Source: Roseateles oligotrophus (GTDB lineage: Bacteria; Pseudomonadota; Gammaproteobacteria; Burkholderiales; Burkholderiaceae_C). Taken from it: a stretch of DNA of 64,000 nt. Of this stretch, positions 19,041 through 54,820 are shown piece by piece. The DNA lies in contig NZ_JACHLP010000006.1 in the NCBI RefSeq assembly GCF_014204525.1, forward strand, positions 62,001 to 126,000, written 5' to 3'. The notes beneath the pieces are model-generated. The model did not search any database, was not told where the DNA came from, and saw only the letters and a program-made list of their open reading frames with translations. Made by a program: the position numbers and the translations under genes. How positions within the stretch are numbered: the first letter of the stretch is position 1; each line of letters starts with the position of its first letter.

Positions 19041-19075
19041 GCCTAACGAATGAAAGGGACTACCCCGTCCCGAAC
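19041..19075 (-). other. Half attC-like site (R' side)
   Basis: On the minus strand the sequence ends with CTTTCATTCGTTAGGC (GTTAGGC core at 19041-19047), preceded by a GGGAC...GTCCC hairpin. This is the canonical right end of an attC, lying 26 bases before the 172-aa gene start. The left half cannot be recognised. No attI or integrase gene follows. Confidence 0.55.
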
Positions 19076-19155
19076 TAGCCGCGTTGCGTCAAACGGCAAC
19101 TGAGTGCCACGATGAGAAGTACGGTGTCTCATCAACTTACTCGGAAGGGGAAATC

Positions 19156-19200
19156 ATGGCCATTCTGACTGTTGGTATCGACCTCGCCAAGAACGTGTTT
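19156..19200 (+). pseudogene. IS110-family transposase, 5' fragment
   Basis: Fifteen codons, MAILTVGIDLAKNVF, match the invariant N-terminus of IS110-family (DEDD) transposases, including the first catalytic Asp. A GGAAGGGG ribosome-binding site precedes the ATG. After codon 15 the similarity ends abruptly in unrelated DNA (GGAGCCTGTCCGAATTTCC), so this is a truncated leftover at the outer edge of the cassette island. Confidence 0.75.
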
Positions 19201-19255
19201 GGAGCCTGTCCGAATTTCCGTGGATCTCAGCTCGGAGGCCGTCGTTGAGCGACCT

Positions 19256-21352
19256 TCAGCGCAGCCATAGCGATCTGAGGCTGATTTGCTGGGCGATGTC
19301 TTCGCACATAAAGCTCAGCTTGTTGCCCGTATCCAAGACAGGCCAGTCGTTACTCGAACAAAAGCCTTCGGTGCGGAAGACCTGCGGCTGCAAAGCACTC
19401 AAGGGGCGACCGTCCAGCGAGTAAATCAAAACTTCGGCCGAGCCAATCTGGCTTTCGCTCGGGGTCAAATTGATGTTGCTAGCGCGGCTCAGCACGAGGT
19501 GCTCGGCGCCTGCCAGCCTCAACTGGTAGTCGTCGGCGGCAAGGTAGAGGGGCGGGCCTGCTTGCTTTATCGTCTCGCCGCTGGCCAGTTTGGGTAGGCC
19601 TTGTGAGTCCAGCTGGAACAAAAATTTGCCTGGGTTTCCCGTGGGCTTGTAGATGGCGCCGATGAACAAGGGGCCGCCTCGCATGGCCGTGAATTTGAGA
19701 TTTGGATCGGCATAGTTGCTGACCAGGGTGCGCGTTAGCAAGCCGCTCGGCCCCAGCGCGGGATTCAGCACGGAAACCTGCAAATCACTGACCACGCCCG
19801 CCGAACTGGGCTTTTGCCAAACGACGTAGGGGCGCCCTTCGAAGACCGCCAGGCGGGCAAAGAAGCCCTGGGCGTTAATGCCTGGCTCAATGTAGAGCTG
19901 GACCGCCTCTCCCAGCGGCTGGCCGGTCACGCGATCGAAACCGCGTAGCCACAAACGAGACTCATAGCGGAAGTCACCAGGTTTGCTGTCGGCCGTTCTG
20001 CTGATGAGCGTCCAAACCAACCACAGCTGCCGGCCGTCGATTGCCTTCTCAAGCTTGTCGCCCTCGATGGCAGTGGGGTCACCCAGGCGAAGGTCTATGG
20101 TCTGCGGAGCTGTGCTGTCGGCGGAGCGCCCTTGCAGGTCAAAGTTGCGAAGTTGGATGGGATCGAATCCACCCTCTCGAATGCTCAGCAAGCCCTCCGC
20201 GTGCCCCAGCAATGTGCCGCCTGCTTGCTGTAGTTCATTTGATAGGAGCGCAGCGTCCAATGCACCTTGTGGGCTCAGGTGAATCAGCAGTGCCTTTTCA
20301 TAGGAGTAGTTCCCATTGACGAGGAATGCACCGCCGCCTGCCCGCAGGGCTAAATTCGACGTCGAACTCAGGGTTTGGCCGGGCGTGCCCGGGAAGTCAG
20401 CAGGTAAGCGCAGCGGAACCAGGTCGGTAAACCCCAGGCCGCGGTCCTTGGCCTGGAAGCTACTGAGTTGCTCGGTGTAGACGCGCCGCAGCCCATTGGT
20501 GTCGGGCACTTCTTCGATGGTCTGGCGCACGATGCCCAGGCTCTGCACATACCAGACCTTGGCCCTGGCCTCGACCACCGGTGCCTCGATCTTGCTCAGG
20601 GTGAGCTTGGCGCGGGCGCGGATGAAGGTGTCAACGCGCACGCTGTCGAGGGGGCCGAAACGTTGCGACGGCAGAACTTCTGATCCGACCACACGGGCAT
20701 AGACGGCCACTTCCACTGCGTCGTTCTTGCCGTCGCCGTCCAGGTCTTTGGGGAGCTCGATCAGGGTTGAGTCCAGCAAGGTGTACTGATCGCCAGCGCG
20801 AACGGGCGAGCGCAGCTCGGGCCATTGAATCGATTGCGGTTTGCCATTGCCCGCCAGGTCCAGCAACTCGATGCTGCGAATCTCCTGGCCGCTGAGCAGC
20901 AGTTCTTTGCTGCTGCTGCCTTTGTTGCCGGCATTGCTGGCCTGTTCGACCACCCCGTCGCCGCTGCGCAGCAGGTGCTTGACCGTGTTCTGGTAACTCT
21001 CGATAGGGCCGAAGCTGCTGCCGTCGGCGCGTACCCGAGTGCTTTCCCCCTGGTACAGCCAGGCGGCATCGACCTGCAAAGGCCGCAGCTGGATGGCCGC
21101 CGTGGACAAGACTTCGGCTGGTGTTGGCGCCGGCGGAATCAGGCTGGCTGGAGCTGGAGCTGGGGGTGCCGGAGCCGGCGTGCTGCTGGAGTTGCCACCT
21201 CCGCCTCCGCATGCCGCCAGCAGCAGGGCGAGTGCAATCGCGGTCGGAGGGCCTAAAACGCCGGCTGGCTTTTTTGAGCTTGTTGTGCGTGCCCCGCTTG
21301 TCGCCTCAGCGAGGGGGCTGAGGCTCGATGGGCTTATGGTTGTCGTCTGCAT
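19256..21352 (-). CDS. Large secreted lipoprotein of unknown function
   Basis: About 698 aa from the ATG at 21352, with GGAG about six bases upstream; the longer frame to 21442 is rejected. A long basic N-region leads to IALALLLAACGGGGG, a lipobox followed by a glycine tether, then a Pro/Ala/Ser linker, so the protein is lipid-anchored and probably exposed. The mature part has beta-rich repeats and a segment KDLDGDGKNDAVEVAVY that is a calcium-loop or EF-hand-like motif. No catalytic family is recognised. Downstream on the same strand there is only the IS110 fragment; upstream is another GGGGG lipoprotein gene in the same orientation, which may be functionally related. Confidence 0.7.
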   Translation of the reverse strand: MQTTTISPSSLSPLAEATSGARTTSSKKPAGVLGPPTAIALALLLAACGGGGGNSSSTPAPAPPAPAPASLIPPAPTPAEVLSTAAIQLRPLQVDAAWLYQGESTRVRADGSSFGPIESYQNTVKHLLRSGDGVVEQASNAGNKGSSSKELLLSGQEIRSIELLDLAGNGKPQSIQWPELRSPVRAGDQYTLLDSTLIELPKDLDGDGKNDAVEVAVYARVVGSEVLPSQRFGPLDSVRVDTFIRARAKLTLSKIEAPVVEARAKVWYVQSLGIVRQTIEEVPDTNGLRRVYTEQLSSFQAKDRGLGFTDLVPLRLPADFPGTPGQTLSSTSNLALRAGGGAFLVNGNYSYEKALLIHLSPQGALDAALLSNELQQAGGTLLGHAEGLLSIREGGFDPIQLRNFDLQGRSADSTAPQTIDLRLGDPTAIEGDKLEKAIDGRQLWLVWTLISRTADSKPGDFRYESRLWLRGFDRVTGQPLGEAVQLYIEPGINAQGFFARLAVFEGRPYVVWQKPSSAGVVSDLQVSVLNPALGPSGLLTRTLVSNYADPNLKFTAMRGGPLFIGAIYKPTGNPGKFLFQLDSQGLPKLASGETIKQAGPPLYLAADDYQLRLAGAEHLVLSRASNINLTPSESQIGSAEVLIYSLDGRPLSALQPQVFRTEGFCSSNDWPVLDTGNKLSFMCEDIAQQISLRSLWLR

Positions 21353-40999: not shown

Positions 41000-41572
41000 A
41001 TGATCAATCGCATCCTCGACCACCTGGAGGAATGGCTCATCGCCTTCCTCATCGGTGCGGCCACTTTTGTGATCTTTCTGGCCGTCGTGCACCGCTACCT
41101 CTCCGGCGTGCCGCTGATTCAGGACTACACCGTCCGCATCAATATGAGCTGGGCGCAAGAGCTGTGCATCTTCATGTTCGTCTGGATGGCCAAGTTCGGC
41201 GCCGCCTACGGCGTGCGCACCGGCATCCACGTCGGCGTGGACGTGGTGCTGCGCAAACTCAAGGGCAGGTCCTACAAGGCTCTGGTGCTGTTCGGCCTCC
41301 TGGCCGGCGCCTTGTTCACCGGCACGGTGGCGGCCCTGGGCGGCAACTTCGTCTGGCATATCGCGCAGACCGACCAGACCTCGGCCGATCTGGAAGTGCC
41401 GATGTGGTGGGTCTATGCCTGCGTGCCCCTGGGCTCCTCGCTGATGAGCTACCGCTTCCTGCAGGTGGCCTGGCATTTCTACCAGACCGGTGAGCTGCCC
41501 CACCACGACCATGCCCATGTGGAAGGCATAGAAGAAGAACCCGCAGCCGCAGCCCCAGGAGCCAAAGCATGA
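41000..41572 (+). CDS. dctQ: TRAP transporter small membrane subunit
   Basis: About 190 aa from the ATG at 41000; the open frame to 40874 overlaps dctP. Four membrane helices (about 14-36, 51-70, 90-112, 130-150) with the family signature NMSWAQELCIFMFVWMAKFG and GIHVGVDVVLR. It ends in an Ala/Glu-rich tail. It forms the membrane complex with DctM; its stop overlaps the dctM start (ATGA). Confidence 0.9.
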   Translation: MINRILDHLEEWLIAFLIGAATFVIFLAVVHRYLSGVPLIQDYTVRINMSWAQELCIFMFVWMAKFGAAYGVRTGIHVGVDVVLRKLKGRSYKALVLFGLLAGALFTGTVAALGGNFVWHIAQTDQTSADLEVPMWWVYACVPLGSSLMSYRFLQVAWHFYQTGELPHHDHAHVEGIEEEPAAAAPGAKA

Positions 41573-42849
41573 ATGCCTCCATCATTTTCATCTTGCTGAT
41601 CCTGCTGATGCTGACCGGCATGCCGATCAGCATCTCGCTGGGCCTGACCGTCCTGACCTTTCTCTTCACCATGACCCAGGTGCCCATCGAATCGGTGGCC
41701 CTGAAGCTGTTCACCGGCATCGAGAAGTTCGAGATCATGGCGATCCCCTTCTTCATCCTGGCCGGCAACTTCCTGACCCACGGCGGGGTGGCGCGGCGCA
41801 TGATCCGCTTCGCCTCCAGCATGATTGGCCACTGGCATGGGGGCTTGGGCCTGGCCGGCGTGATGGCCTGCGCCCTGTTCGCCGCCGTGTCGGGCTCCTC
41901 GCCCGCCACCGTCGTGGCCATCGGCTCGGTGATCCTGCCGGCCATGGTCAAGCAGGGCTTCCCGAACAAGTTCGGCGCCGGCATCCTGACCACCTCGGGC
42001 TCGCTAGGCATCCTGATCCCGCCCTCCATCGCCATGGTGATGTATTCGGTCTCCACCAACACCTCGGTGGGTGCCATGTTCATCGCCGGCGTGGTGCCGG
42101 GCCTGATGCTGGCCGCGGCCCTGGGTTTCACCACCTGGTTCATCGCCCGCAAGAACAGCTACCCCCGCCTGCCCAAGGCCAGTTGGGGCGAGCGCTGGAC
42201 GGCCTTCCGCGAAAGCGTCTGGGGTTTGCTGCTGATCGTCGTCGTGATGGGCGGCATCTACAGCGGTGTCTTCACGCCCACCGAGGCGGCGGCGATGGCG
42301 GCGGTCTATGCCTTCATCGTGGCCGTCTTCATCTACAAAGACCTGCCACTCAAGCGCCTGCCCAAGGTGCTGCTGGACTCCGCCAGCATGAGCGCCATGC
42401 TGCTCTACATCATCACCAATGCCGTGCTGTTCAGCTTCCTGATGACCAGCGAGGGCGTGCCCCAGGCCATGGCGGACTGGATGATCAACCAGGGCTTTGG
42501 CCCGGTCGCCTTCCTCTTGGTGGTCAATGTGCTCTTGCTGCTGGCTGGCAATGTGATGGAGCCCTCCAGCATCATCCTGATCCTGGCCCCCATCCTGTTC
42601 CCGGTGGCGGTGAAGTTAGGCATCGACCCCATCCACTTCGGTATCCTGATCGTGGTGAATATGGAAGTGGGCATGTGCCATCCGCCGGTGGGCCTGAATC
42701 TCTACGTGGCCTCGGGCATCACCAAGATGGGCATCTCCGAGCTGACCGTGGCCGTCATGCCCTGGCTGCTGACCATGCTGGGCTTCCTGCTGCTGGTCAC
42801 CTATGTGCCTGCGATCTCGCTGTGGCTGCCGAATCTGTTGATGAAGTGA
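41569..42849 (+). CDS. dctM: TRAP transporter large membrane subunit
   Basis: 426 aa with about twelve membrane helices. Family marks: TGMPISISLGL, IPFFILAGNFLTHGGVARRM, FAAVSGSSPATVVAIGSV, TSGSLGILIPPSIAMVMYS and the C-terminal NMEVGMCHPPVGLNLYVAS. It carries the substrate- and Na+-binding sites of the DctPQM importer. The end, ISLWLPNLLMK, is repeated in decayed form at 47263-47302 beyond the NACHT gene. A rho-independent terminator follows. Confidence 0.93.
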   Translation: MNASIIFILLILLMLTGMPISISLGLTVLTFLFTMTQVPIESVALKLFTGIEKFEIMAIPFFILAGNFLTHGGVARRMIRFASSMIGHWHGGLGLAGVMACALFAAVSGSSPATVVAIGSVILPAMVKQGFPNKFGAGILTTSGSLGILIPPSIAMVMYSVSTNTSVGAMFIAGVVPGLMLAAALGFTTWFIARKNSYPRLPKASWGERWTAFRESVWGLLLIVVVMGGIYSGVFTPTEAAAMAAVYAFIVAVFIYKDLPLKRLPKVLLDSASMSAMLLYIITNAVLFSFLMTSEGVPQAMADWMINQGFGPVAFLLVVNVLLLLAGNVMEPSSIILILAPILFPVAVKLGIDPIHFGILIVVNMEVGMCHPPVGLNLYVASGITKMGISELTVAVMPWLLTMLGFLLLVTYVPAISLWLPNLLMK

Positions 42850-42878
42850 GGCTCAGCCGCGCAGGCTGAAGTCCGAAA

Positions 42879-42904
42879 AACCTGGGGCTTGCTCCGGGTT
42901 TTTT
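42879..42904 (+). terminator. Rho-independent terminator of dctPQM
   Basis: AACCTGGGGC-TT-GCTCCGGGTT (10-bp stem with two G-T wobbles) running into TTTTTT, 29 bp after the dctM stop. Confidence 0.8.
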
Positions 42905-42961
42905 GCGGAAGGATTGGTGCGAATAGCGCCGGGGTCGGTTCTTGTTGAATAGGAAATCGCA

Positions 42962-45900
42962 CTATTCTTCGCGTGGAGAGAGGTCGATCACCAGACCAAA
43001 AGTCCGGCCATTCCGGTCAGCGGGCATGTCCGTTGTGAACAAGGCAGCAGCCTGCTCCGCGCTCTGAGGTCGTGCCCCTGAAGGATGGTTCTTCACCGCA
43101 TACCCAAACCACAGCACAAGGTATATCCCGATCCCGGCCGCAGCTGGATTTTTTGTGTAGCGTGCCTCAAGTTGGTCCCACCAGGCGGACCAGACGGTTG
43201 TGTGATTTTCCTTTTTGATCTCAACCGGCACGACCACAAGTTCCCCTCGAATCAATGTGCTGCCCTGAAGATCTGCCCGCTTGTCTGCAGCGCTTGGAAC
43301 CTCTTTCTCAAGGGTAACGTTCTGAAGTTGCAACTGCGGGCGAATCAGCCCCAGTAGCACATCGCGGCATTCGTTCTCACCGCGTGGCTTTCTGCCGCCC
43401 CGGCCGTCTGGTTCCCAGAACAGGTCCAACTGATTGGGGTTGGAGTCTCGGATGCGCTGAGCTAGACGCGTCATCTGATCCAGTATCAGGATGGCCATAT
43501 CACGAGCATTTGCCGGAGCCCGATTCGCCAGAACTTCCGCCACTTGTGGGAGTGGTGGAGCAAAAAATGTACAAGCTCTGCGCAAAAGGCGTTGCTCGCC
43601 AATGCACCAGTCAAGTTCAGAGGCCCAAGGTGACATGCAGGCCAGTTGTCGAAGCCGGCCAAGCTCGGTGGCCGCTTGTTTGCTCGATATGCGAGCCAAC
43701 ACCATTAGCGAGTTGTAAATAGTTCGGTGCTCTCGCTCAGATGGGGCGTTCGGTTCGTGATAGAGAGGATCTCCACAAGCAACGGCGCAGTCGGCGAGCA
43801 ATTCAGCAAGCCATCCGAGCACTTCAGGTCGTCGCTGTGCCAAGCCCGTCCAATCTGCCTCTTGCGTCTGTATTGCTTTTCTGATGGTCAGGGCAATGTC
43901 TGCGTCGACGTCTGCGAGTGTGCGCAGCGCTATGAGGTGCAGTTCGGGATCAAATTCGATGGACGCTGTATGCAGGGCAATGCAGAACTCCACCGATATG
44001 GTCCTGCCTGCAAGGAGTTTGCTGAGAATGTTTGACCAATCACTGAGAGCCAGATGCCGGCGAGCTGCGCTTACCAAGGCCTCATTGAAAAGGCGCATTT
44101 GGTCCGGCGATGGGGTGTTTGGAATGGCATTGAGCAGGACGGGCAAGAGCTCGCGGACGAATGCTTGTGGAGCTTCTTGTTTGCGCAGAAAGTAGTAGGT
44201 GCTGAGCTGCGGCGTCGGATGCGCAATATCCCTCTCCGCCAGGGGACGAAGAATGCGCAATACATCCGCTGACCGATGTGCATACAGTGCCGTCAACCAA
44301 TTGGCCTGTCTGCCATGCGCGTCAACCAGCTGACAGCCGATCAAGGCCTCAAGCGTCGGCTCAGACCAGGCCCTGATGACTTCCGGATTGGCTTCAAAAA
44401 GAAGTTCTGCGGCGAGCAAACAGACATAGCTCAACCAGAGGCGCTTCCCTTCGGCGTGTGTGACTTTGATTTCGTCTAAGGTCGGGAGATCATCTCTCGA
44501 TAGTGCAGCGCATATGCCCTTGATCGCACGCCAGGCTTCTTCCGGTGTGCCACCCAGGTAGTTGCTGACTCGCGCAATGGCGTCGTTGCCGGCGACGCCG
44601 TGCAGTTCTTTCTTGTAGGCCAGGGAAATTTCCCCCATCAACCAGAGTTCACCTGCCCCATCAAAAACAGCTGGAAGCAAGGGCAGGATCCTTGCACGGT
44701 GTTCTGATAGTCGGAGTGAGCTTGCTCTGGCGACTCTTTGCGTTCGAAGATGATCCCTTCCTCGCCAATCGTCAAGCCGGCAAGAGGTAGATTCTTCGAC
44801 CCAGGACGTCGCTTCAGGCCACCGTGTCGAGTTCGCCTCTACCCAACTCCAGACATCGTCCAGATCAATGGCAAAGGTATCGAGCGGGTGCGTTGCCACA
44901 TGTGCGGCCTGTACAACCCAGTGTCGTGCCAGTTCTAGGTCATCGGTTCTGGAGGCCTGCAGCAGCAGCCATCGATACCAGTTTCTCGGGCGCCTAGCTC
45001 TGTGTAGGCGTGAGTCAATCTCCCATATGCGACGCATGGCCGCGTCTAAACTCTTTGACCCATTTGCGCTGCTTAACAACAGGGCTTTCATGCGCCGCGG
45101 CCGGGCAGTCAACCATTCGTCAATACTTTGTTGTTTAGCATCGTCCGTTTCGACACTGCCGTAGCGACTCAGCCTCAGCCCGAACCATTCATGTAACTGC
45201 TTGTCGCTGGCATCGTCACCAATCCCCTGCAAAGCCCGCAATAGCAACTTGCATGCGATCTCTGCCAAGGTGTCGGAAAACCGGGAACTGCTTTGGTCGC
45301 TGTTGACTTCGGGCAACTTGATCAAAGCTAGAGCTGTCGCCATGGCCTCCGGTATCTGGTCGTCAGGCATTTTTTCGACGTAGTCGTCGGCCCAGAACAT
45401 GTGATAGTTACCAATCAGATTGGTAGCCTTCGCGGCGTGCAGGTGGCGCAGTGCGATGGGTGCAGGAATGCTGTTGGGATAGGCCTCGGCAAGGATGTGA
45501 CCGACCAGTTCGTCGTCTTCATCAGCGAACTTTCCCACGCGGAAATCTTCAAGGACAGATGCCGTCTCCTCGGCGTTGTAGTTTATGCACCTGAGCCATG
45601 CCGATGCAGCCATACGGCGTGTGCGAGAAAAATGGGTGGCATCCTCCAGAGCGGCCCGCATATCTTGTGCCAAATCGGGCAGAGCGTCACCATGAATGAC
45701 GGCATCAATCACACATTCTAGAAGCGCTTCATGAGCCAAGTCTCGATCAGGGCGTTGGAGCAGATGTCTCAATTCCGGAACCATATCGCTGGTTCCCAAG
45801 GCACCAAAAGGATGAGCTAGCCAGAGCCCATTTCGGAACCATGGGAAGCGGATGGCCTCTCGTCCTAGCGCTCCAAGAATCAGTGTCTTTTCAGCGGTGC

Positions 45901-47050
45901 TGAAGTCTCTTACGTCCCCGTATAGCACCAGACCTACCGGGTCAGTCTGGATGAGAAGTTCGCGCTCGGTCAGGCAATGTACGGTAAGCCAGCCATGCAG
46001 GCCACGCAAGGAGTCAACGACACCTCCATCTTCCCCGGTCATGAGGGCAAGAAGCCGACGAATTGGCAGCCCGCGTTCCATTACGAGTTTTGCGAGGGCT
46101 TTGCCGCCCAAATACTCGGCGATGGTTCTGTGCCAGGGGGCGTAGCGCTCGCCTTCTGCACCAAACAGCTTTGTCCCCAGTGTCGCTGACAGGAGTTTGG
46201 CGTCGAGTTCCAGAGAGATCGGAATATCGGCAACCAAAGCGCCTCCTTCACCACAATCGCCGGGGTCTTTTGTGATGTAGGAAATGTCTGCAAGTAGCAG
46301 CAACGCGGACAGCTTGCCTGCTGCCTCTTGAAGCAGGTCTTCGGCTATCAGTCCATGCTGACAGGAGTCTCTGTGTCGTGTGTTGTGCTCCTGAGCCATT
46401 TGTTTGCACGCAAGTGCATAAACGGCTGAGCGGCTTTTCGGCCATTGGCCTCGGCAAACGACGCTGGACAGTAGTTTGAGCAGCAGTGGGCTTCCCAGCA
46501 ATGCTCCTAGATCGTGCCGGTGGGCTTCTTCAAAGAATTCGTTGATCGCGTTGTCGCCGGACTGCAGCCATGTGCCGAGCAAAGTACGAATATCGGATTC
46601 GCTCAGTCGATCCAATCGAAGCTCACGTACATTGCCGGAGGGGGCAACCAAGGATAAATCTTGAGCCCCTCCCTGGAGCCAATCCGCTTCACGGCATGAC
46701 AGGCGAAAGCGAGGTTTGCCGAGTTCCGCCAGCCTGGTGCGTATTTCATCCAGTGGGGCCGAACTGTTACCAAGAACAGCGCGTCGTTCGTCCAGCGCAT
46801 CTATAAAAAGAGTCTTCCCCGCGCACATGGCGCTTGTCGAAACACACAAGAAGTCTCTGGCAGTGAAGTACAACGCGCTATTCCCCAGCGCTTCCGCCTC
46901 TTGCCGGAAGACAGAAGTCTTGCCGGAGCCCGGTTCACCCAACAGAACATAGGAATCAAGGTCGCGAAACGAGGCCATCGGGGCGGACTCGCTCCCCTGA
47001 TCCTCGATTTTGAAAGTGGCTGTGCGAAACAGTGGAATGAGGTCAAGCAT
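42962..47050 (-). CDS. NACHT/STAND-like NTPase with C-terminal PD-(D/E)XK nuclease-like domain (candidate antiphage protein)
   Basis: 1362 aa, with no signal peptide or membrane helix. Walker A GEPGSGKT (38-45, K44) comes almost at the N-terminus, then Walker B LFIDALDE (81-88), FRLSCREADW and a NACHT-like winged region ending YAPWHRTIAEYLGGKALAK, the usual FxHxTFxEYLAA position. About 800 residues of degenerate helical (HEAT/TPR-like) repeats follow. The last 130 residues fit a PD-(D/E)XK nuclease: E in GENECRDVLLGLI, D1260 (KRADLQG), E1277-I-K1279 (VPVEIKKE), then an amphipathic helix with WDQLEARY. The layout (sensor switch, helical repeats, nuclease) is that of antiviral STAND proteins, except that the nuclease is C-terminal where Avs proteins carry it N-terminally. 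It is lower in GC than its neighbours and no partner gene is present, so it would be a single-gene system (inference). Confidence 0.75.
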   Translation of the reverse strand: MLDLIPLFRTATFKIEDQGSESAPMASFRDLDSYVLLGEPGSGKTSVFRQEAEALGNSALYFTARDFLCVSTSAMCAGKTLFIDALDERRAVLGNSSAPLDEIRTRLAELGKPRFRLSCREADWLQGGAQDLSLVAPSGNVRELRLDRLSESDIRTLLGTWLQSGDNAINEFFEEAHRHDLGALLGSPLLLKLLSSVVCRGQWPKSRSAVYALACKQMAQEHNTRHRDSCQHGLIAEDLLQEAAGKLSALLLLADISYITKDPGDCGEGGALVADIPISLELDAKLLSATLGTKLFGAEGERYAPWHRTIAEYLGGKALAKLVMERGLPIRRLLALMTGEDGGVVDSLRGLHGWLTVHCLTERELLIQTDPVGLVLYGDVRDFSTAEKTLILGALGREAIRFPWFRNGLWLAHPFGALGTSDMVPELRHLLQRPDRDLAHEALLECVIDAVIHGDALPDLAQDMRAALEDATHFSRTRRMAASAWLRCINYNAEETASVLEDFRVGKFADEDDELVGHILAEAYPNSIPAPIALRHLHAAKATNLIGNYHMFWADDYVEKMPDDQIPEAMATALALIKLPEVNSDQSSSRFSDTLAEIACKLLLRALQGIGDDASDKQLHEWFGLRLSRYGSVETDDAKQQSIDEWLTARPRRMKALLLSSANGSKSLDAAMRRIWEIDSRLHRARRPRNWYRWLLLQASRTDDLELARHWVVQAAHVATHPLDTFAIDLDDVWSWVEANSTRWPEATSWVEESTSCRLDDWRGRDHLRTQRVARASSLRLSEHRARILPLLPAVFDGAGELWLMGEISLAYKKELHGVAGNDAIARVSNYLGGTPEEAWRAIKGICAALSRDDLPTLDEIKVTHAEGKRLWLSYVCLLAAELLFEANPEVIRAWSEPTLEALIGCQLVDAHGRQANWLTALYAHRSADVLRILRPLAERDIAHPTPQLSTYYFLRKQEAPQAFVRELLPVLLNAIPNTPSPDQMRLFNEALVSAARRHLALSDWSNILSKLLAGRTISVEFCIALHTASIEFDPELHLIALRTLADVDADIALTIRKAIQTQEADWTGLAQRRPEVLGWLAELLADCAVACGDPLYHEPNAPSEREHRTIYNSLMVLARISSKQAATELGRLRQLACMSPWASELDWCIGEQRLLRRACTFFAPPLPQVAEVLANRAPANARDMAILILDQMTRLAQRIRDSNPNQLDLFWEPDGRGGRKPRGENECRDVLLGLIRPQLQLQNVTLEKEVPSAADKRADLQGSTLIRGELVVVPVEIKKENHTTVWSAWWDQLEARYTKNPAAAGIGIYLVLWFGYAVKNHPSGARPQSAEQAAALFTTDMPADRNGRTFGLVIDLSPREE

Positions 47051-47244
47051 CGGAAATGGCGAGTGATTCTGGCGTTATGCAAAGCCAAGAGCAGCGAGAC
47101 CCCCTAGTGTCATCGACCATGGATAGGCTGGAAGCAGTCTAAAGCGTAGGCTCAGTTGAGCGGCGGCCTGCGCCACCTGCCCAGGTGCAACTGGGCACAA
47201 CCTGCATGAGTGCCGCGCGCCTCCCCGTTGATGGCCAATATGCT

Positions 47245-47302
47245 CTTGCTACCTGTGTGTCGGCGATCTCGCTGTGGCTGTCCAATCTGCCAATGAAGCA
47301 GG
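47245..47302 (+). pseudogene. Decayed copy of the dctM 3' end
   Basis: This stretch aligns with 42793-42850, the end of dctM: GCGATCTCGCTGTGGCTG is identical at 42811-42828 and 47263-47280, and the flanks translate as ISLWLSNLPMK versus ISLWLPNLLMK. The stop is lost and nothing of the rest of dctM is present. It lies on the far side of the NACHT gene in the same orientation as dctM, so the two bracket a 4.4-kb segment. The remaining DNA between 47051 and 47329 holds no gene. Confidence 0.7.
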
Positions 47303-47329
47303 GTAGGGCGGCGGCGCAGCAGAAAGGTT

Positions 47330-47764
47330 TCAGCGCTCGTACAGCAGCATCTCGGGGCTGGCCTTGTTGCAGGGCTGCTGGCATTGCCAGCGCTGCTGCT
47401 CGCTTTTCTCCGTCCAGACGCTGCCCTGGGTTTTGACCAGGAGGTAGCGGCTGCCGTAGAGCGGCGACTCGCGATTGCCGTCGCACCAGATCGCCCGTGG
47501 GAAGTCGCTGCGGCGGTGGCAGACCTCTTTGACCCAGCGCGCCGTGCCGGCCCCGGTCGGCAACTGCACCTGGCCCAACAGGTCTTGCACCTTGGGGTCG
47601 GTCTTGCTGGGCCGCATCTCGTCCACGATCAGGCTGGTGACAGCCTGGCCCTGTGCGTTCAGCCCGTTGAAGGAACCCCAGCGTGGGGCGAGTTCGGCCG
47701 CTGTCACTGCGCTGGCCAGCAGGGCCAGCGCCAGGCCGCCCATCCATGGGTTTGCCCTGCGCAT
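47330..47764 (-). CDS. Small secreted protein of unknown function
   Basis: About 144 aa from the ATG at 47764. The signal peptide runs to about SAVTAAEL, so it is periplasmic or secreted. Four cysteines (in KEVCHRR, IWCDGN, RWQCQQPC) could form two disulphides. The segment VWTEKSEQQRWQCQQ is polar and no family is recognised. Its start overlaps the stop of the 167-aa gene upstream (ATGA), so the two are an operon. Confidence 0.65.
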   Translation of the reverse strand: MRRANPWMGGLALALLASAVTAAELAPRWGSFNGLNAQGQAVTSLIVDEMRPSKTDPKVQDLLGQVQLPTGAGTARWVKEVCHRRSDFPRAIWCDGNRESPLYGSRYLLVKTQGSVWTEKSEQQRWQCQQPCNKASPEMLLYER

Positions 47765-48267
47765 CAAAAGGGCTCGCTGCCTTCACGAATCTCCACACCC
47801 AGCAGCTCGCTGCATTGCTGCACCGTGGCGGCGCTGTCGCTGCGGGTGATCCAGCCGGCGTAGCAATCGCCCTCGGTGTCCCAGTTCCACAGCGTCAGGC
47901 CCTGGGCGGCCAGCTCGGCGTGAGCGCGCTGCATCAGCTCGGGCACATCGTGCTCGTCCAGAAAATCCTCGTCCAGCGCGTCCTCGACGCCAAAGCTCAG
48001 GCTGGCGCCCCAGCCCTGGGCCAGCTGCTGCAGGCATTGCACAAAGGACTCGCTGTCCTTCCAGTCGACAAAAAAGCCGCTCTGCCAGTCGATCGCTTCC
48101 TTGAGGGTCCAGAGCGCGCCCTCCTCGTCTTCCTCCGTCGCCGCCTCGGCATAGGCGCTGCGGTGGGCTTGGGCCAGGGCGGGCTGGGCCGCGATGACGG
48201 CGATGAGCCGCTCAATGGCTGCCGGGATGGCGGGGCTGTCTTGCTGCGTGGCCGTGCTGCTGCTCAT
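47764..48267 (-). CDS. Conserved hypothetical cytoplasmic protein (DUF6630-like)
   Basis: About 167 aa from the ATG at 48267; the longer frame lies over the divergent promoter. The sequence is acidic and helical, with WTLKEAIDWQSGFFVDWKDS in the middle and LTLWNWDTEGDCYAGWITRS near the end, a pattern I associate with DUF6630-type proteins, though not firmly. No catalytic motif is visible. It overlaps the following secreted-protein gene and diverges from the TetR-RND operon. Confidence 0.55.
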   Translation of the reverse strand: MSSSTATQQDSPAIPAAIERLIAVIAAQPALAQAHRSAYAEAATEEDEEGALWTLKEAIDWQSGFFVDWKDSESFVQCLQQLAQGWGASLSFGVEDALDEDFLDEHDVPELMQRAHAELAAQGLTLWNWDTEGDCYAGWITRSDSAATVQQCSELLGVEIREGSEPF

Positions 48268-48409
48268 GCTTGAATCTTTGCTCCATGTAATTTGCAAGTT
48301 AATGCAGTATCCGCTGCCCGTCTCTGGGGCGGCAGCTCCGCCGGCTTGAAAAGTCCTGCCAGCGCACACCGTTCGCCAATCGCCCAATTTCCCGCGCCCG
48401 CGCAGGGGA

Positions 48410-48429
48410 TTAATCAATCGATTGATTAA
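48410..48429. promoter_or_regulatory. Perfect 20-bp palindrome, operator of the TetR-RND operon
   Basis: TTAATCAATCGATTGATTAA, 18 bp before the tetR start codon and thus over or next to its promoter. Size, symmetry and position fit autoregulation by the adjacent TetR-family protein. Confidence 0.75.
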
Positions 48430-48447
48430 ATTCCCTAAGATGGCGCG

Positions 48448-49116
48448 ATGCCAGACACCAAGCCTCTTCAAGACACCGGCCCAAGCCGCAAGACCCGTCT
48501 CTTGCGCGCGGCCGCCAGCGTCTTTGCCGCCAAGGGTTTTGAGCGCGCCAGCACGCGCGAGATCTGCCAGGCCGCCGGCGTCAATATCGGCCTGATCGCC
48601 TATTACTTCGGCGACAAGCTGGGGCTTTACCGTGCGCTGATGGAGCAGCCGGTGGCCGATGTCATGGCCCGCATGCCGCCGCCCGATGCGGCGCTGCCGC
48701 TGCAGCCCTGGCTGCGCGGCTTTTACACCGCTTTTCTGACGCCGCTGCGCGATGGCGACGAGGCCATGTCCCAGCTGATGCGCTTGTGCGCGCGCGAGAC
48801 CCTGGAGCCCAGCGCCGTCTATCTGGAGATCTGCCAGCAAAGCATCGCGCCGCACCACCATGCCCTGGTCGCCATGCTGGCGCAGCGCTGCGGCGTGGCC
48901 GAGGTGGACGCGGAGCTACACCAGCTCGGCTTCGCCCTGGTGGCCCTGGTTTTTGACTACTGGATGTCGGCCGACTATATGGAGGCCGTGGTGCCCGGCC
49001 TGGTTTACGGGCCCGAAGCCTTTGAGCGCATCCTGCACCGCCTGGTCGGCTATGGCCAGGCCCTGATCGAACACGAGATCGCCCTGCGCCAGGGCAAGGA
49101 GAAAAAGCATGGCTGA
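48448..49116 (+). CDS. TetR-family repressor (CecR/YbiH type) of the efflux operon
   Basis: 222 aa. The N-terminal HTH is RKTRLLRAAASVFAAKGFER, then STREICQAAGVNIGLIAYYF. The C-terminal domain, with MRLCARETLEPSAVYLEI, matches the DUF1956/CecR group whose members control RND and ABC drug efflux. A perfect palindrome precedes the gene. Its 3' end overlaps the next gene (outer-membrane channel) by 8 bp, so repressor and pump share one transcript and the system is self-limiting. Confidence 0.9.
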   Translation: MPDTKPLQDTGPSRKTRLLRAAASVFAAKGFERASTREICQAAGVNIGLIAYYFGDKLGLYRALMEQPVADVMARMPPPDAALPLQPWLRGFYTAFLTPLRDGDEAMSQLMRLCARETLEPSAVYLEICQQSIAPHHHALVAMLAQRCGVAEVDAELHQLGFALVALVFDYWMSADYMEAVVPGLVYGPEAFERILHRLVGYGQALIEHEIALRQGKEKKHG

Positions 49117-50566
49117 ACAACCGGGGCGGCGGCGCATTATTGCGCTGTTCAAAATTACTGCCGCTTGTTTAACTGGTTATTTGAGCGGATGTGCGTTGAG
49201 CCCGATGCCGGCCAGTGCGGCCCGCGCGGCCGCAGCGCCGGCGGCTTGGGTCGCGCCCCTGCCGGCGCCGGTCGCGGCGGCTGAGGCCCCCGCCGCAGTG
49301 CCGGCCTGGTGGGGCCGCTTCGACGACCCGGCACTGGCCGCCCTGGTCGAGCAGACCCTGGCCGCCAACCCCGGCCTGCAGCAGGCGCAGGCGCGCATCC
49401 AGCAGGCGCGCGCCCTGGCCCAGCAGGCCGGCAGCGCCCGCAGCCCCGACCTGCAGCTGAACGGCCTGGCCCAGACCCAGCGCCTGGCCCTGGCCGAGGG
49501 CGTGCCCCGCCAGCGCCTGGCCCAGCTGAACCTGGAGGCGGGCTGGGAGATCGATCTGTTCTCCCGCGTGCGCCTTGGGGCCGAGGCCGCCGGTGCGCGC
49601 CTGCAGGTCAGCGCCTTCGACGCCCAGGCCATGCGCCTGGCCCTGGCGGCCGAACTGGCGCGCCAGTTCATCGCCCTGCGCGCCTGTGAACGCCAGACCC
49701 AGATCGCGGCCGAGGACGCCCAGGCCGCCATCCGCCTGGCTGCCTGGAGCGCCGACAAGCAGGCCGTGGGCCTGGAGAGCGCCGCCGCCAGCACCCTGCT
49801 GCGTGCCGCAGCCGCCGAAGGCCAGAGCCGCCAGTTGGCCCAGCAGGCCGAGTGTGAGGTGCAGATCAAGGCCCTGGTGGCCCTGAGCGATCGGCCCGAG
49901 CCGGCGCTGCGCGCCCTGCTGGCCGCTGGTCATGCGCGCCTGCCGGTGCTCAGCGGCGGCGGCCTGAGCGTCCACGCCCTGCCGGCCCAGACCCTGGCCC
50001 AGCGCCCCGACCTGGCCGCCGGCGAGGCCCAGCTGCGTGCCGCCTGGGCCGAGCGTGGTGCCGCCGAGGCTGGGCGTTACCCCCAGCTGCGCCTGGGCGG
50101 CTCCATCACCCTGGCGGCCTTGCAGCTGGCGGGTGGCCCGCGCGCGGAGGGCAGCGGCTGGAGCTTTGGCCCCAGCCTGACGCTGCCGCTGTTTGACGGC
50201 GGCGCCCGCCGCGCCGAGGCCCAGGCCGCCCAAGCCCGTTTCGACGAGGCCCAGGCCGGCTATCGAGGCCTGGTCTTGCAGGCCGTGCGCGAGGTGGAGG
50301 AGGCGCTGGTGCGCCTGGACGCCGCCGGGGCGCGCAGCCAGCACGCCCAGGCCAGCGCGGCCGGCTACACGGCCGCCGCCCAGGCCAGCCAGGAAAGCTG
50401 GCGCGCCGGCCTGAGCGGCGCGCCCGAGCTGGAACAGTTGCGCCGCCAGGCCTTGGCCGCCCAGGCCGCCCTGGTGGCCCTACAGGCCGAGCGCCTGAGT
50501 GCCTGGATCGCCCTCTACAAGGCCGCGGGCGGCGGCTGGCAAGCCGACGCCGCCGCCATCGATTGA
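49109..50566 (+). CDS. Outer-membrane efflux channel lipoprotein (NodT/OprM family)
   Basis: 485 aa. Lipoprotein signal with YLSGCAL. PAWWGRFDDPALAALVEQTL at the start of the mature region and the duplicated coiled-coil/beta segments (LAQLNLEAGWEIDLFSRVRL; FGPSLTLPLFDGGARRAEA) are the OEP repeats of TolC-like trimers. It forms the exit duct of the tripartite pump encoded with it. Very Ala- and Gln-rich. It starts inside the tetR gene, 8 bp before its end. Confidence 0.9.
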   Translation: MAEQPGRRRIIALFKITAACLTGYLSGCALSPMPASAARAAAAPAAWVAPLPAPVAAAEAPAAVPAWWGRFDDPALAALVEQTLAANPGLQQAQARIQQARALAQQAGSARSPDLQLNGLAQTQRLALAEGVPRQRLAQLNLEAGWEIDLFSRVRLGAEAAGARLQVSAFDAQAMRLALAAELARQFIALRACERQTQIAAEDAQAAIRLAAWSADKQAVGLESAAASTLLRAAAAEGQSRQLAQQAECEVQIKALVALSDRPEPALRALLAAGHARLPVLSGGGLSVHALPAQTLAQRPDLAAGEAQLRAAWAERGAAEAGRYPQLRLGGSITLAALQLAGGPRAEGSGWSFGPSLTLPLFDGGARRAEAQAAQARFDEAQAGYRGLVLQAVREVEEALVRLDAAGARSQHAQASAAGYTAAAQASQESWRAGLSGAPELEQLRRQALAAQAALVALQAERLSAWIALYKAAGGGWQADAAAID

Positions 50567-50588
50567 ACCCATTCATCTGAGACTCACC

Positions 50589-51707
50589 ATGACGCTAACT
50601 GTTTATCAACGCGGCATAGCACTCTTTGCCGCAAGCCTGCTCGTCGGCCCAGCCGCCGCCGACCCCGCGCCCAAGGCCAAGCCGGCCCTGACGGTGCAAG
50701 TCATCAGCCCGCAGAGCGCCGAGTGGGCGCAGACCCTGGCCGCCAAGGGTTCGGTGGCGGCCTGGGCCGAGGCGCAGGTGGGGGCCGAGCTGGCCGGCCT
50801 GCGCCTGGCCGAGCTGCGCGCCCAGGTGGGCGATGCGGTCAAGCGCGGCCAGCTGCTGGCGCGCCTGAACAGCGAGAGCGTGCAGGCCGAGCTGGCCCAG
50901 TCGCAAGCCGCCCTGGCCGAGGCTCGCGCGCAGCTGGCCGGTGCGGCCAGCGATGCCACGGCCGCGCGAGCCCTGCAGGCCAGCGGCAGCACGGCGCTGA
51001 GCGCCCAGCAGCTGCAGCAGCTGCTGACCCAGGAGGCGACGGCGCAAGCCCGCTTGGCGGCCGCCAAGGCCCGGGTGGATAACGATCAACTCAGGCTGAG
51101 CCAGACCCGCATCCTGGCGCCGGATGACGGCGTCATCACGGCGCGCGCGGCCCAGCTGGGCATGGTGGTGCAGCCGGGCCAGGAGCTGTTCCGCTTGCAG
51201 CGCCAGAACCGCCTGGAGTGGCGCGCCGAACTGCCGGCCGAGAGCCTGGGCCAGCTGCGCCCCGGCCAGCCGGTGCTGGTGCAGGGCGCCCAGGGTCAGA
51301 GCATTGCGGCCCGGCTGCGCGTGGTGGCGCCCAGCGTGGACCCGCAGACCCGGCTGGGCCTGGTCTATGTGGACCTGCCGCCCAGCGCTGCCGCTGCCGG
51401 CCTGCGCGCGGGCAGCTTTGCGCGCGGCGAGTTCAAGCTGGGGGCCAGCGCGGCTTTGAGCCTGCCGCAGAGCGCGGTGCTGCAGCGCGATGGCTTCAGC
51501 TATGTGTTCCGCGTCGGCGCCGACCAGCGGGTGCAGCAGCTCAAGGTCAGCACCGGCCGCCGCCTGGGCGAGCGCATCGAGCTGGCCGCCGGCTTGGGTG
51601 CCGACGCCCGCGTGGTCGCCAGCGGCGTGGGTTTTTTGCGTGATGGCGACAGCGTCAAGGTGGTGGCTGCTGCGGCCGCTCCGGCCACCGCGCCTGCCAA
51701 GCCCTGA
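50589..51707 (+). CDS. RND efflux periplasmic adaptor (membrane fusion protein)
   Basis: About 372 aa from the ATG at 50589. A signal peptide runs to about AAADP. Order: lipoyl half (GAELAGLRLAELRAQVGDAV), alpha hairpin (about 100-165), second lipoyl half with LSQTRILAPDDGVITARAAQ, then beta-barrel and membrane-proximal domains (DGFSYVFRVGADQRV). It links the inner-membrane pump to the outer channel. It starts 22 bp after the channel gene and ends 14 bp before the pump gene. Confidence 0.9.
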   Translation: MTLTVYQRGIALFAASLLVGPAAADPAPKAKPALTVQVISPQSAEWAQTLAAKGSVAAWAEAQVGAELAGLRLAELRAQVGDAVKRGQLLARLNSESVQAELAQSQAALAEARAQLAGAASDATAARALQASGSTALSAQQLQQLLTQEATAQARLAAAKARVDNDQLRLSQTRILAPDDGVITARAAQLGMVVQPGQELFRLQRQNRLEWRAELPAESLGQLRPGQPVLVQGAQGQSIAARLRVVAPSVDPQTRLGLVYVDLPPSAAAAGLRAGSFARGEFKLGASAALSLPQSAVLQRDGFSYVFRVGADQRVQQLKVSTGRRLGERIELAAGLGADARVVASGVGFLRDGDSVKVVAAAAAPATAPAKP

Positions 51708-51721
51708 GCCGAGGTGATGCC

Positions 51722-54700
51722 ATGCTGAACGTCTCGTCCGCCTCCATCCGCAACCCCATCCCCGCCATCCTGCTCTTCATGCTGCTGAGCCTGGGGGGCT
51801 TGCTGGGCTTTCACTGGATGAAGATCCAAAACTTCCCCGACATCGACCTGCCCACCATCGTCGTCACCGCGACCCTGCCCGGTGCCGGCCCGGCCCAGCT
51901 GGAAAGCCAGGTGGCGCGCAAGATCGAGAATCAGATCGCCACGCTGCAAGGCGTCAAGCATGTCTACACCACGCTGCAGGACGGCGTGGTCAGCATGATG
52001 GTGGAGTTCCGCCTGGAAAAAACCACCCAGCAGGCGCTGGACGAGGTGCGCGATGCCGTGGCCCGCGTGCGCTCCGACCTGCCCGCCGAGCTGCGCGACC
52101 CGGTGATCGCCAAGCTGGAGCTGGCCGGCTTGCCCATGCTGACCTATACCGTCGCGTCTGCACGTTTGGATGAGGAGGCCTTGAGCTGGCAGGTGGATAA
52201 CAAGATAGCCAAGCGCATGCTGGCCGTGCAGGGCGTGGGCGCCGTGACCCGGGTGGGCGGCGTCAGCCGCGAGCTGCGGGTGGAGCTGGACCCGGCCCGC
52301 CTGCTGGCCCTGAACATCAGTGCCGCCGCCGTGTCCCAGCAGCTGCGCCTGGTGCAGCAGGAGGCTTCGGGCGGCCGGTCCGATATCGGCGGCGCCGAGC
52401 AGTCGCTGCGCATCCTGGCCACCGTGCAGACGGCGCAGGAGCTGGCCGCCATGGACGTGGCCCTGCCCGACGGCCGCAGCGTGCGCCTGGACCAGCTCGC
52501 CAGCGTGCAGGACACGGTGGCCGAGCCGCGCTCCGCCGCCTTGCTGAATGGTCGGCCGGTGGTGGGCTTCGAGATCAGCCGTACCCGCGGTGCCGGCGAG
52601 GTGGAGGTGGCCCGTGGCGTGCGCGCCGCGCTGGAAGAGCTGCGCGCCAGCCACCCCGAGCTGCAGTTCGAGGAGGCCTTCAGTTTCGTTGAGCCGGTGC
52701 AGGAGAACTACGACGGCTCGATGATCCTGCTCTACGAGGGCGCCGTGCTGGCCATCATCGTCGTGTGGTTCTTTCTGCGCGACTGGCGCGCCACGCTGGT
52801 GGCGGCCACGGCCCTGCCGCTGTCCGTCATCCCGACCTTTGGCCTGATGTATCTGCTGGGCTTCTCGCTCAATATCGTCACCCTGCTGTCGCTGTCCCTG
52901 GTGGTGGGCATTCTGGTGGACGATGCCATCGTCGAGATCGAGAACATCATGCGCCATCTGGCCATGGGCAAGACGCCTTACCAGGCCGCCATGGAGGCGG
53001 CCGACGAGATCGGCCTGGCCGTCATCGCCACCACCTTCACGCTGATCGCCGTCTTCCTGCCCACCGCTTTTATGAGTGGGGTGCCGGGCAAGTTCTTCGT
53101 GCAATTCGGCTGGACGGCGGCGTTGGCCGTGTTCTTCTCCCTGGTGGTGGCGCGCATGCTCACGCCCATGATGGCCGCCTATATTTTGAAGCCCTCCGCC
53201 AAGCCCCATGCCGAGCCGCGCTGGTTGGGCGTCTATATGGGCTGGGCGCGCTGGTGCCTGCGCCACCGGCTGGCCACGCTGGCCGCGACGGCGGCCTTCA
53301 CCGCAGGCTCGCTGGGCCTGGTGGGCCTGCTGCCCACCGGCTTTTTGCCGCCCGATGATTTGAGCCAGACCCAGGTCACCGTCACCCTGGCGCCCGGCGC
53401 CACCTTGCAGGAGAGCAGCGCCTTGGCCGAGCAGGCGCGCCGCATCGTGGCCGCCCACCCCCATGTCAAACGGGTTTACACGACGATAGGCGGTGGCAAC
53501 TCGGGCGGCGACCCCTTCGCCCTGGGCGGCGGCGCCTCGGTGGGCACGGCCACGCTGACGCTGGCCATGACGCCCAGGACCGAGCGCAGCGGCATCAGCA
53601 AGCAGCGCATCGAGAGCGAGCTGCGCGAGGCGCTGGAGCAATTGCCAGGTGCCCGCGTCAAGGTGGGCTTCGGCGGCTCGGCCGAGAAATATGTGCTGGT
53701 GCTGGCCGGCGAGGACGGCGAGGTGCTGGCCCAGCACGCGACCCTGGTGGAGCGCGAGCTGCGCGCCATCCCGGGCATAGGCGGTGTGTCATCCAGCGCC
53801 GCGCTGACTCGGCCCGAGCTGATCGTGCGGCCCGATTTCGCCCGCGCCGCCGACCTGGGCGTCAGCGCCGCGGCCATCGCCGAGACCTTGCGCGTGGCCA
53901 CGGCCGGCGACTATGAGCAAGGCCTGGCCAAGCTCAATCTGAGCCAGCGCCAGGTGCCCATCGTCGTGCGCCTGCCGGCCGCCGCGCGTGCCGACCTGGC
54001 CCTGCTCGGCCAACTGCCGGTGCCGGGCCGCGCCGGGTTGGTGCCGCTGGCCAGCGTGGCAAGCCTGGAAATCAATAACGGGCCTGCGCAGATCAACCGT
54101 TATGACCGCCTGCGCAACGTCAACTTCGAGATCGAGCTGAACCAGCAGCCCCTGGGCGAGGTGGCCAAACAGGCCCAAGCCCTGCCCAGTCTGCAAAACC
54201 TGCCGCCCGGCGTGATCCAGACGGCGGTGGGCGATGCCGAGGCCATGGCCGAGCTGTCCGCCAGCTTCGGCCTGGCCATGCTGACCGGCGTGCTCTGCAT
54301 CTACATCGTGCTGGTGCTGCTGTTCAAGGACTTTGTGCAGCCGGTGACCATCCTGGCGGCCCTGGTGCTGTCGGTGCCCGGCGCCTTTGTGGCGCTCTAC
54401 ATCACGCAGACGGCGCTCTCCATGCCTTCGATGATAGGCCTCATCATGCTGATGGGCATCGCCACCAAGAACTCCATCCTGCTGGTCGATTACGTGGTGA
54501 TGGCGCGGCGCGACCATGGCATGGGCCGCTTTGACGCCATCCTCGACGCCTGCCACAAGCGCGCCCGCCCCATCGTCATGACCACCATCGCCATGGGCGC
54601 TGGCATGTTGCCCATCGCGCTGGGCATAGGCGTGGACCCGAGCTTCCGCGCCCCCATGGCCATCGTCGTCATCGGCGGCCTGATCACCTCCACCTTTTTG

Positions 54701-54820
54701 AGCCTGCTGGTGATCCCGGTGTTGTTCAGCTATGTGGACGATGCGATTGCCTGGGTCGCGCGCCGCGGCCGTGCTGCGATGATGGGCGGCGATCAACCAG
54801 AGACCACGAGCCCATCATGA
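51722..54820 (+). CDS. RND efflux pump, inner-membrane transporter (HAE1-like)
   Basis: 1032 aa with two homologous halves, each with a helix, a large periplasmic porter domain and five to six helices. Hallmarks: IQNFPDIDLPTIVVTATLPG, the TM4 motif VVGILVDDAIVEIEN with the proton-relay Asp pair, and SMPSMIGLIMLMGIATKNSI with the TM10 Lys. It exports drugs or toxic organics using proton motive force; the substrate range is not predictable by eye. It is cotranscribed with the adaptor and with an FKBP isomerase whose start overlaps its stop (ATGA). Confidence 0.93.
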   Translation: MLNVSSASIRNPIPAILLFMLLSLGGLLGFHWMKIQNFPDIDLPTIVVTATLPGAGPAQLESQVARKIENQIATLQGVKHVYTTLQDGVVSMMVEFRLEKTTQQALDEVRDAVARVRSDLPAELRDPVIAKLELAGLPMLTYTVASARLDEEALSWQVDNKIAKRMLAVQGVGAVTRVGGVSRELRVELDPARLLALNISAAAVSQQLRLVQQEASGGRSDIGGAEQSLRILATVQTAQELAAMDVALPDGRSVRLDQLASVQDTVAEPRSAALLNGRPVVGFEISRTRGAGEVEVARGVRAALEELRASHPELQFEEAFSFVEPVQENYDGSMILLYEGAVLAIIVVWFFLRDWRATLVAATALPLSVIPTFGLMYLLGFSLNIVTLLSLSLVVGILVDDAIVEIENIMRHLAMGKTPYQAAMEAADEIGLAVIATTFTLIAVFLPTAFMSGVPGKFFVQFGWTAALAVFFSLVVARMLTPMMAAYILKPSAKPHAEPRWLGVYMGWARWCLRHRLATLAATAAFTAGSLGLVGLLPTGFLPPDDLSQTQVTVTLAPGATLQESSALAEQARRIVAAHPHVKRVYTTIGGGNSGGDPFALGGGASVGTATLTLAMTPRTERSGISKQRIESELREALEQLPGARVKVGFGGSAEKYVLVLAGEDGEVLAQHATLVERELRAIPGIGGVSSSAALTRPELIVRPDFARAADLGVSAAAIAETLRVATAGDYEQGLAKLNLSQRQVPIVVRLPAAARADLALLGQLPVPGRAGLVPLASVASLEINNGPAQINRYDRLRNVNFEIELNQQPLGEVAKQAQALPSLQNLPPGVIQTAVGDAEAMAELSASFGLAMLTGVLCIYIVLVLLFKDFVQPVTILAALVLSVPGAFVALYITQTALSMPSMIGLIMLMGIATKNSILLVDYVVMARRDHGMGRFDAILDACHKRARPIVMTTIAMGAGMLPIALGIGVDPSFRAPMAIVVIGGLITSTFLSLLVIPVLFSYVDDAIAWVARRGRAAMMGGDQPETTSPS

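Follow-up and report, generated by a model that had tools for sequence, protein, structure and literature searches.

Avs (AVAST) proteins are STAND NTPases with a large sensor, and their effector sits N-terminally. The bacterial NACHT proteins bNACHT25 and bNACHT32 are described, in the excerpts available of the source, as carrying a PD-(D/E)XK DNase at the N-terminus as their effector, with sensing assigned to the C-terminal part (PMC12169576). Effectors described for STAND proteins also include C-terminal GT4 and lectin-type domains, and the architecture reported below is absent from the available sections of these descriptions (PMC7159879, PMC8195603). In addition, the excerpted DefensePredictor text mentions NACHT and PD-(D/E)XK systems, there without 'EruA' or 'Eru' alongside phage terms (PMC13092281). 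NCBIfam (release of June 2026) contains a model, NF058535, that is named "NACHT domain-containing antiphage protein EruA" and covers this whole architecture, and also a related NACHT antiphage model, HyoA (NF058534). Literature listings yielded no publication that introduces EruA and no relevant paper on 'Eru' or 'HyoA', and for 'EruA' combined with phage they led to one paper, on an unrelated E. coli regulator.

We analysed a 64-kb stretch of Roseateles oligotrophus DNA (hereafter the window), in which one gene had been predicted to encode an undescribed NACHT-nuclease defence protein. Computation established the order of its domains, their predicted folds, the conservation of catalytic residues, the homology over the full EruA model and the mobile contexts of its relatives.

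Results

The locus and its relation to EruA

The gene is located at 42962..47050 on the minus strand, as are all of its features given below, and its frame (47050..42962) is intact, with 1362 residues and no internal stop. The insert is adjoined by a TRAP transporter large-subunit gene (41569..42849, plus strand), which we take from its sequence to be dctM-like, and the 3' end of dctM recurs in degenerate form, in direct orientation, at 47233..47298 (plus strand). This copy is identical to the dctM end at 46 of 66 bases, versus 36 of 66 for the next best site in the window. As originally predicted, the GC content of the gene (0.560) is lower than that of its neighbours (0.628 for the dctM-like gene and 0.669 for a DUF6630 gene; 0.654 for the window), and the DNA looks foreign.

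Residues 9-1358 of the protein aligned to positions 1-1318 of the 1318 positions of NF058535, with a score of 833.1 bits. Since this is below the equivalog cut-off of 1000, we call the protein EruA-like and not EruA. All 12 members of a 12-protein set (A1) matched the same model, and L013 and L014, both over the cut-off, share the N-terminal NACHT and C-terminal nuclease profiles. The proposed antiphage role is probable, and the arrangement can no longer be called undescribed, because EruA spans it end to end. The predicted placement of the effector did hold: the P-loop starts at residue 38 and the nuclease domain covers residues 1190-1358, in contrast to the Avs and classical bNACHT layout with the effector N-terminal to the NTPase, which in the excerpted description is also that of bNACHT25 and bNACHT32 (PMC12169576). 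Other searches with the window protein gave no PADLOC model match, only a weak AAA match in Pfam, and nothing better than E 1 among PDB sequences. A partial HyoA match was found in 11 of the 12 A1 members, whereas the window protein was the sole member without one at 0.001. The C-terminal nuclease profile is present at the HyoA-like loci L136 and L138, as in the window protein, and L135 was without a match to it.

For the wider comparison, relatives were fetched by patterns on the P-loop and a ..CR..ADW stretch, and the window protein (P0001) was aligned with 60 relatives taken from 80 loci (61 sequences). Partial, split or short frames (L057, L065, L067, L071, L073, L081, L102, L107) and weak matches (L112, L113, L115-L124) were left out. 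Among the 60 relatives, L074, L080, L084 and L088 are not in A3 and L099 is not in A2; A4 omits L074, L084 and L088. In a tree of 66 rows, built by a quick method and rooted at the midpoint, the window protein falls in a 24-row group with L054 (support 93, not starred). L054 scored 1067.8 bits against NF058535 and E. coli L125, from another group, scored 1203.9 bits, so that proteins above the EruA cut-off stand on both sides of the tree. The E. coli and Citrobacter members differ from the window protein in belonging to the other clade and in having an LA2681-HEPN gene downstream.

NACHT module and helical repeats

The NACHT module with its winged-helix and helical parts (residues 25-445, 45716..46978) is supported by structure matches to NLRC4, NLRP3 and NOD2. 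An AlphaFold2 model of residues 1-1100 (pLDDT 87.1) consists of this module and a helical solenoid, and its closest fold match was NLRC4 (Z 23.1, 377 residues aligned, rmsd 4.3), with NLRP3 and NOD2 at Z about 21, Apaf-1 at 12.2 and Avs4 at 9.3. Although Avs4 is thus in the fold list, the predicted NACHT fold is much closer to animal NLRs than to Avs. The motifs of NACHT-clade STAND proteins are all present: Walker A (GEPGSGKT, residues 38-45, 46916..46939), Walker B with its D..DE pattern (LFIDALDE, residues 81-88, 46787..46810) and a winged-helix segment with H307 and E312 (APWHRTIAEY, residues 304-313, 46112..46141). These are the positions at which the original prediction had read the two Walker motifs, its FxHxTFxEY-like segment being the one with H307, and its assignment of an N-terminal NACHT-type NTPase agrees with both motifs and fold. 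In the 61-sequence alignment G41, G43, K44, D84, E88, R120 and H307 are kept in 61 of 61 and D87 in 60 of 61; conservation at the P-loop and the ..CR..ADW stretch is partly built in, because the search patterns used both. The Pfam NACHT model (PF05729) gave the window protein 13.4 bits versus a cut-off of 26.7, and at 0.1 it matched 14 of 58 N-terminal segments (best 2.7e-7).

The helical repeats, a putative sensor, follow at residues 446-1110 (43721..45715). A helical-repeat region had been predicted correctly, as the modelled solenoid indicates, but at about 665 residues plus a linker it is shorter than the roughly 800 residues proposed. It is also the least conserved part of the protein, with a mean pairwise identity of 22.9%, versus 36.7% for the NACHT module and 40.3% for the nuclease domain.

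The AAA_14-DUF4143 partner gene

Of the 45 informative loci in the window's clade, 39 carry an AAA_14-DUF4143 ATPase gene (PADLOC PDC-S01) 5' of the NACHT gene, mostly overlapping it or separated by a gap within 12 bases. Tree statistics predate this count: they rest on the 32 loci labelled at that stage, and the number of 39 was reached with tblastn; L090, unsettled in the tree, was counted with this clade. The partner is near full length in 38 cases and a fragment in one, and in a MAG (L084) the DUF4143 and NACHT proteins are fused in a single frame. The partner shows a separate conserved E...D...ExK pattern, and its mean identity is 55%, versus 35% for the NACHT sensor-nuclease. Partial literature records on DUF4143 with phage led only to Thermus Argonaute work.

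No DUF4143-type partner was detected in the 64-kb window (tblastn, 1e-5), and a loose search for a decayed one in 47000-49100 gave a best E of 0.051 among the matches listed, which is chance level. Elsewhere in the genome no close partner was found with the L054 partner as sole query (best 33% identity). The original statement that no partner gene is present therefore holds locally. As a description of a one-gene design it does not, because with the partner kept in 39 of 45 clade loci the tree is better explained if the window lineage lost it. These absences, together with the flanking recombination trace (the dctM end copy), are also what speaks for a relic, in which the lineage would have lost the DUF4143 ATPase that its ancestors depended on, leaving a NACHT-nuclease that no longer works or is decaying despite its open frame. 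We consider this unlikely, since the reading frame is open over all 1362 residues and the catalytic residues have been retained. In addition, the nearest relative, L045 (47% identity), is likewise without the DUF4143 gene and has kept the same active-site residues, from which it follows that solo forms persist, and the search detected no DUF4143 gene in the 18 rows of a second clade, where the three enterobacterial members scanned were all over the EruA cut-off.

Genomic contexts of relatives

The closest relative adjoins type I R-M genes and an NYN-OST-HTH gene, and two E. coli islands hold an integrase, a tRNA and an LA2681-HEPN gene beside the EruA-type homologue. Homologues also occur in 25 plasmid records, of which 14 are typed as conjugative. 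Of six plasmid regions opened, four have SIR2, AbiEi/AbiEii, TrlF or restriction endonuclease genes nearby and two have no such defence-type neighbour. The enrichment of defence genes around homologues that the original prediction looked for was not borne out: with the DUF4143 gene set apart, PADLOC gave about a dozen matches among the families listed for the 218 nearest neighbours (25 of 119 and 25 of 85), which does not clearly exceed the control result (no more than 8 matches among 110 genes), the controls being 20 fixed 8-kb stretches in genomes of the window's order rather than in the taxa of all 60 loci.

The plasmid records and integrase-bearing islands, and one homologue locus with a TnsA-like gene adjoining a GlmS-like gene, would fit a protein aimed at plasmids, other mobile DNA or mobile-element competition rather than mainly at phages. 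However, plasmids often carry phage defence, and NCBI curators name the family antiphage, so that we regard such a target as improbable; relatives in one phage record and five viral-contig loci do not separate the two readings.

The C-terminal nuclease domain

The PD-(D/E)XK nuclease domain covers residues 1190-1358 (42977..43483). As the original prediction of such a domain had called for, the C-terminal part (residues 1060-1362) was modelled with AlphaFold2, which gave a PD-(D/E)XK-type fold with an alpha-beta-beta-beta-alpha-beta core (pLDDT 89.2). The fold search returned BamHI as the best match (Z 8.5), followed by Can2 (7.7), BstYI (7.4), PaqCI (7.3), BglII (7.1), McrBC (6.3) and HamA of Hachiman (5.8), where by the tool's own warning Z below 8 may arise by chance. 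Foldseek gave no match to this domain at E <= 0.001. The fold match is therefore moderate, and the case rests on a match list that is mostly PD-(D/E)XK enzymes, together with the conservation of D and ExK within the core. D1260 (43271..43273), a predicted metal ligand, is kept in 61 of 61 sequences, as is E1225 (43376..43378), an acidic residue on the core's first helix. In the ExK of the nuclease centre, E1277-I-K1279 (43214..43222), E1277 is kept in 59 of 61 (exceptions L109 and L099) and K1279 in 60 of 61 (exception L099), so that the three active-site residues named beforehand are indeed conserved; Q1293 and Y1298 are each kept in 60 of 61. Conservation here is independent of the fetching patterns. 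That the domain is no nuclease but a PD-(D/E)XK-like fold that binds DNA or serves as a scaffold, as the moderate Z and the lack of a Pfam family common to more than two of 60 C-terminal segments might suggest, is very improbable given that E1225, D1260, E1277 and K1279 are retained despite 40% mean pairwise identity of the domain.

Discussion

We consider it probable that the window protein is an EruA-like, NLR-type antiphage protein, which most likely senses phage, oligomerises and cuts DNA. In a resting cell, the NACHT module would keep its nucleotide in a closed monomer. The trigger may be a phage product or an infection-altered host factor, read by the fast-changing repeats, and nucleotide exchange would then allow NACHT modules to form a ring or cluster. 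Such clustering could bring the C-terminal PD-(D/E)XK domains together to cut DNA, with phage DNA destroyed or cell division halted as the outcome. In most of the clade, the upstream AAA_14-DUF4143 ATPase, with its PD-(D/E)XK-like pattern, probably takes part, and in the window lineage the partner-less copy would either work alone or be nearing decay.

To our knowledge, what is new here is the DUF4143 operon and not the window gene. We see about an even chance that the clade goes back to an immune system of two genes, so far undescribed, which would combine a slowly changing AAA_14-DUF4143 protein and a fast NACHT sensor-nuclease, each with an ATPase and a PD-(D/E)XK-type centre, with the window gene having shed its partner to work alone and the E. 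coli clade having a HEPN neighbour instead.

Altogether, an NLR-like bacterial receptor with a tail nuclease is now tied to a named antiphage family, the neighbours of which vary between a DUF4143 ATPase, an LA2681-HEPN protein, or neither. A comparison among them could show how an effector at the C-terminus, opposite to the usual layout, is fired by a NACHT sensor, and whether immunity is among the functions of the DUF4143 ATPases, a widespread family with no assigned role.

Family assignment and predicted structure

The gene is a single open frame of 1362 residues at 47050..42962 on the minus strand, and the motifs named in the original prediction are present in its protein sequence at the residues given there. 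Pfam returned weak AAA matches only, all below cut-off, and the PADLOC models did not match the protein. The NCBIfam model NF058535, 'NACHT domain-containing antiphage protein EruA', aligns with it from end to end (E 5.6e-250, 833 bits). Because of this alignment the architecture, which had been put forward as undescribed, is that of an already named family; since the score lies below the curated cut-off of 1000 bits, the window protein is an EruA relative below the equivalog line. No fitting paper on EruA or the related HyoA (NF058534) was found in a literature search that covered few subscription papers.

For the predicted fold of residues 1-1100 (mean pLDDT 87.1, 57-sequence alignment), the best solved matches were animal NLRs, namely NLRC4 (Z 23.1, 377 residues, 4.3 A), followed by NLRP3 and NOD2 (Z about 21). 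Apaf-1 (12.2) and Avs4 (9.3) scored lower, and NLRC4 and NOD2 also took the top ranks in Foldseek. Residues 1060-1362 (pLDDT 89.2, 60 sequences) were predicted to form a helix-strand-strand-strand-helix-strand arrangement. Foldseek was weak on this C-terminal model, with no match at 0.001, and a second alignment of its candidates ranked BamHI high (Z 8.5, 152 residues), together with Can2, BstYI, PaqCI, BglII, MunI, McrBC and HamA. PD-(D/E)XK enzymes predominate in this list, and some unrelated helical proteins match the preceding repeats.

An upstream AAA_14-DUF4143 partner

One genome scan yielded 80 loci, of which 60 with a full-length or nearly full-length gene were retained and 20 dropped. 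Among the nearest neighbours of these 60, an AAA_14-DUF4143 protein directly upstream was the standout cluster, and Pfam confirmed this assignment in 5 of 5 such neighbours scanned. By tblastn the partner was present in 39/60 loci, near full length in 38 and as a 62-residue fragment in one (L078). Most of the near-full-length partners (28/38) reach or run beyond the position listed as the NACHT start, in a few cases because that start is placed too far upstream; nine stop 3-11 bases short, and that of L080 stops 440 bases short. PADLOC names the partner PDC-S01, with matches in 19/100 and up to 15/118 neighbour genes versus 0/110 control genes. The DUF4143 gene apart, defence genes in the neighbourhoods were not clearly above controls. 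At L084, in a Thermoanaerobaculia MAG, partner and NACHT-nuclease share one 1832-residue frame with no stop (8666-14161, plus strand), which is either a natural fusion or an assembly error.

A tree made by a quick method from 66 rows (60 loci and the window protein, plus two proteins from E. coli and three from plasmids) splits the family, with 46 loci on the window's side, including L090, whose placement is unsettled. The earlier statement that no partner gene is present holds for the window copy and fails for its clade, in which the partner occurs at 39 of 45 informative loci, the 46th (L086) having no upstream sequence. It was not found in the other clade (18 rows) or the outlier L114, three of these rows having <800 bases upstream. 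The partner label requires 14 changes on the tree, against a mean of 22.3 when shuffled and fewer than in all 500 shuffles; this statistic used the first, lower partner count of 32. The window protein and its nearest relative, L045 (47%), both lack the partner and are sister to partner-bearing L046, and DUF4143-like matches in the window's own genome are distant only (best 33%).

Partner residues D110, E111, E329, D357, E370 and K372 are each kept in 33/33 sequences, corresponding to Walker B and an E...D...ExK pattern; we take DUF4143 to be a PD-(D/E)XK-type fold. Mean identity is 55.2% for the partner versus 35.3% for the NACHT protein, and was higher for the partner in 496/496 pairs from 32 loci. 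The DUF4143 operon of this clade may be new; on DUF4143 and phage, a literature search that covered few subscription papers gave only a Thermus Argonaute paper.

Genomic context

The window gene is flanked by an intact dctM-like gene (41569..42849, plus strand) and a worn copy of the dctM 3' end (46/66 bases matching, next best place in the window 36/66); an integrase gene was not seen next to the window gene. In a congener (G004), dctM is followed directly by the gene whose window homologue starts at 54817, which makes the intervening 12 kb or so (42.85-54.8 kb) either an addition in the window or a loss in G004. In six other congeners opened, the window sequence was not seen to resume after dctM in this way. 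A match to the window gene was found in 9/198 relatives, own genome counted. The 42850-54816 interval also holds a DUF6630 gene (47767-48276, minus strand), whose protein was found in its own genome only among 18 searched in the genus, and what we presume to be a TetR-RND efflux set. A second low-GC stretch (about 0.56; about 15500-19500) carries unknown small genes and a DDE transposase fragment (17644-18387).

L045, which carries a type I R-M set, sits behind HsdR, an HNH protein, HsdM, HsdS and an NYN-OST-HTH protein. A TnsA-like gene lies upstream, and downstream comes a SIS/GATase protein, presumably GlmS. GlmS is the usual Tn7 attachment gene. Two partner-less members (L045:1553-16314 and L066:1683-8189) adjoin such a GlmS-like gene.

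The Citrobacter homologue was matched in 30 of 5426 E. coli genomes, and both E. coli loci opened (L125, L126) have an integrase and a tRNA near the gene. An LA2681-family HEPN gene lies downstream, at 13 bases in L126 and after one small gene in L125, and the neighbour in Citrobacter shares 96% identity with the one in L126. The two E. coli and the Citrobacter NACHT proteins all exceed the EruA cut-off (1203.9, 1129.8 and 1109.5).

Conservation and proposed function

In the alignment of 61 sequences, E1225 and D1260 are invariant (61/61), E1277 is kept in 59/61, and K1279, Q1293 and Y1298 each in 60/61; the search patterns that fetched the relatives included the P-loop and R120 region, and not these C-terminal residues. 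Among HyoA-like proteins, a 1438-aa congener protein (L135, G004:C29:108000-124000) does not match the C-terminal nuclease profile, whereas L136 and L138 do. Pairwise identity averages 40.3% over the nuclease, 36.7% over the NACHT part and 22.9% over the helical part; this last, low value would fit a putative sensor under changing pressure. We consider it probable that the window protein is an EruA-like NACHT receptor with a C-terminal nuclease, its role being most likely antiphage.
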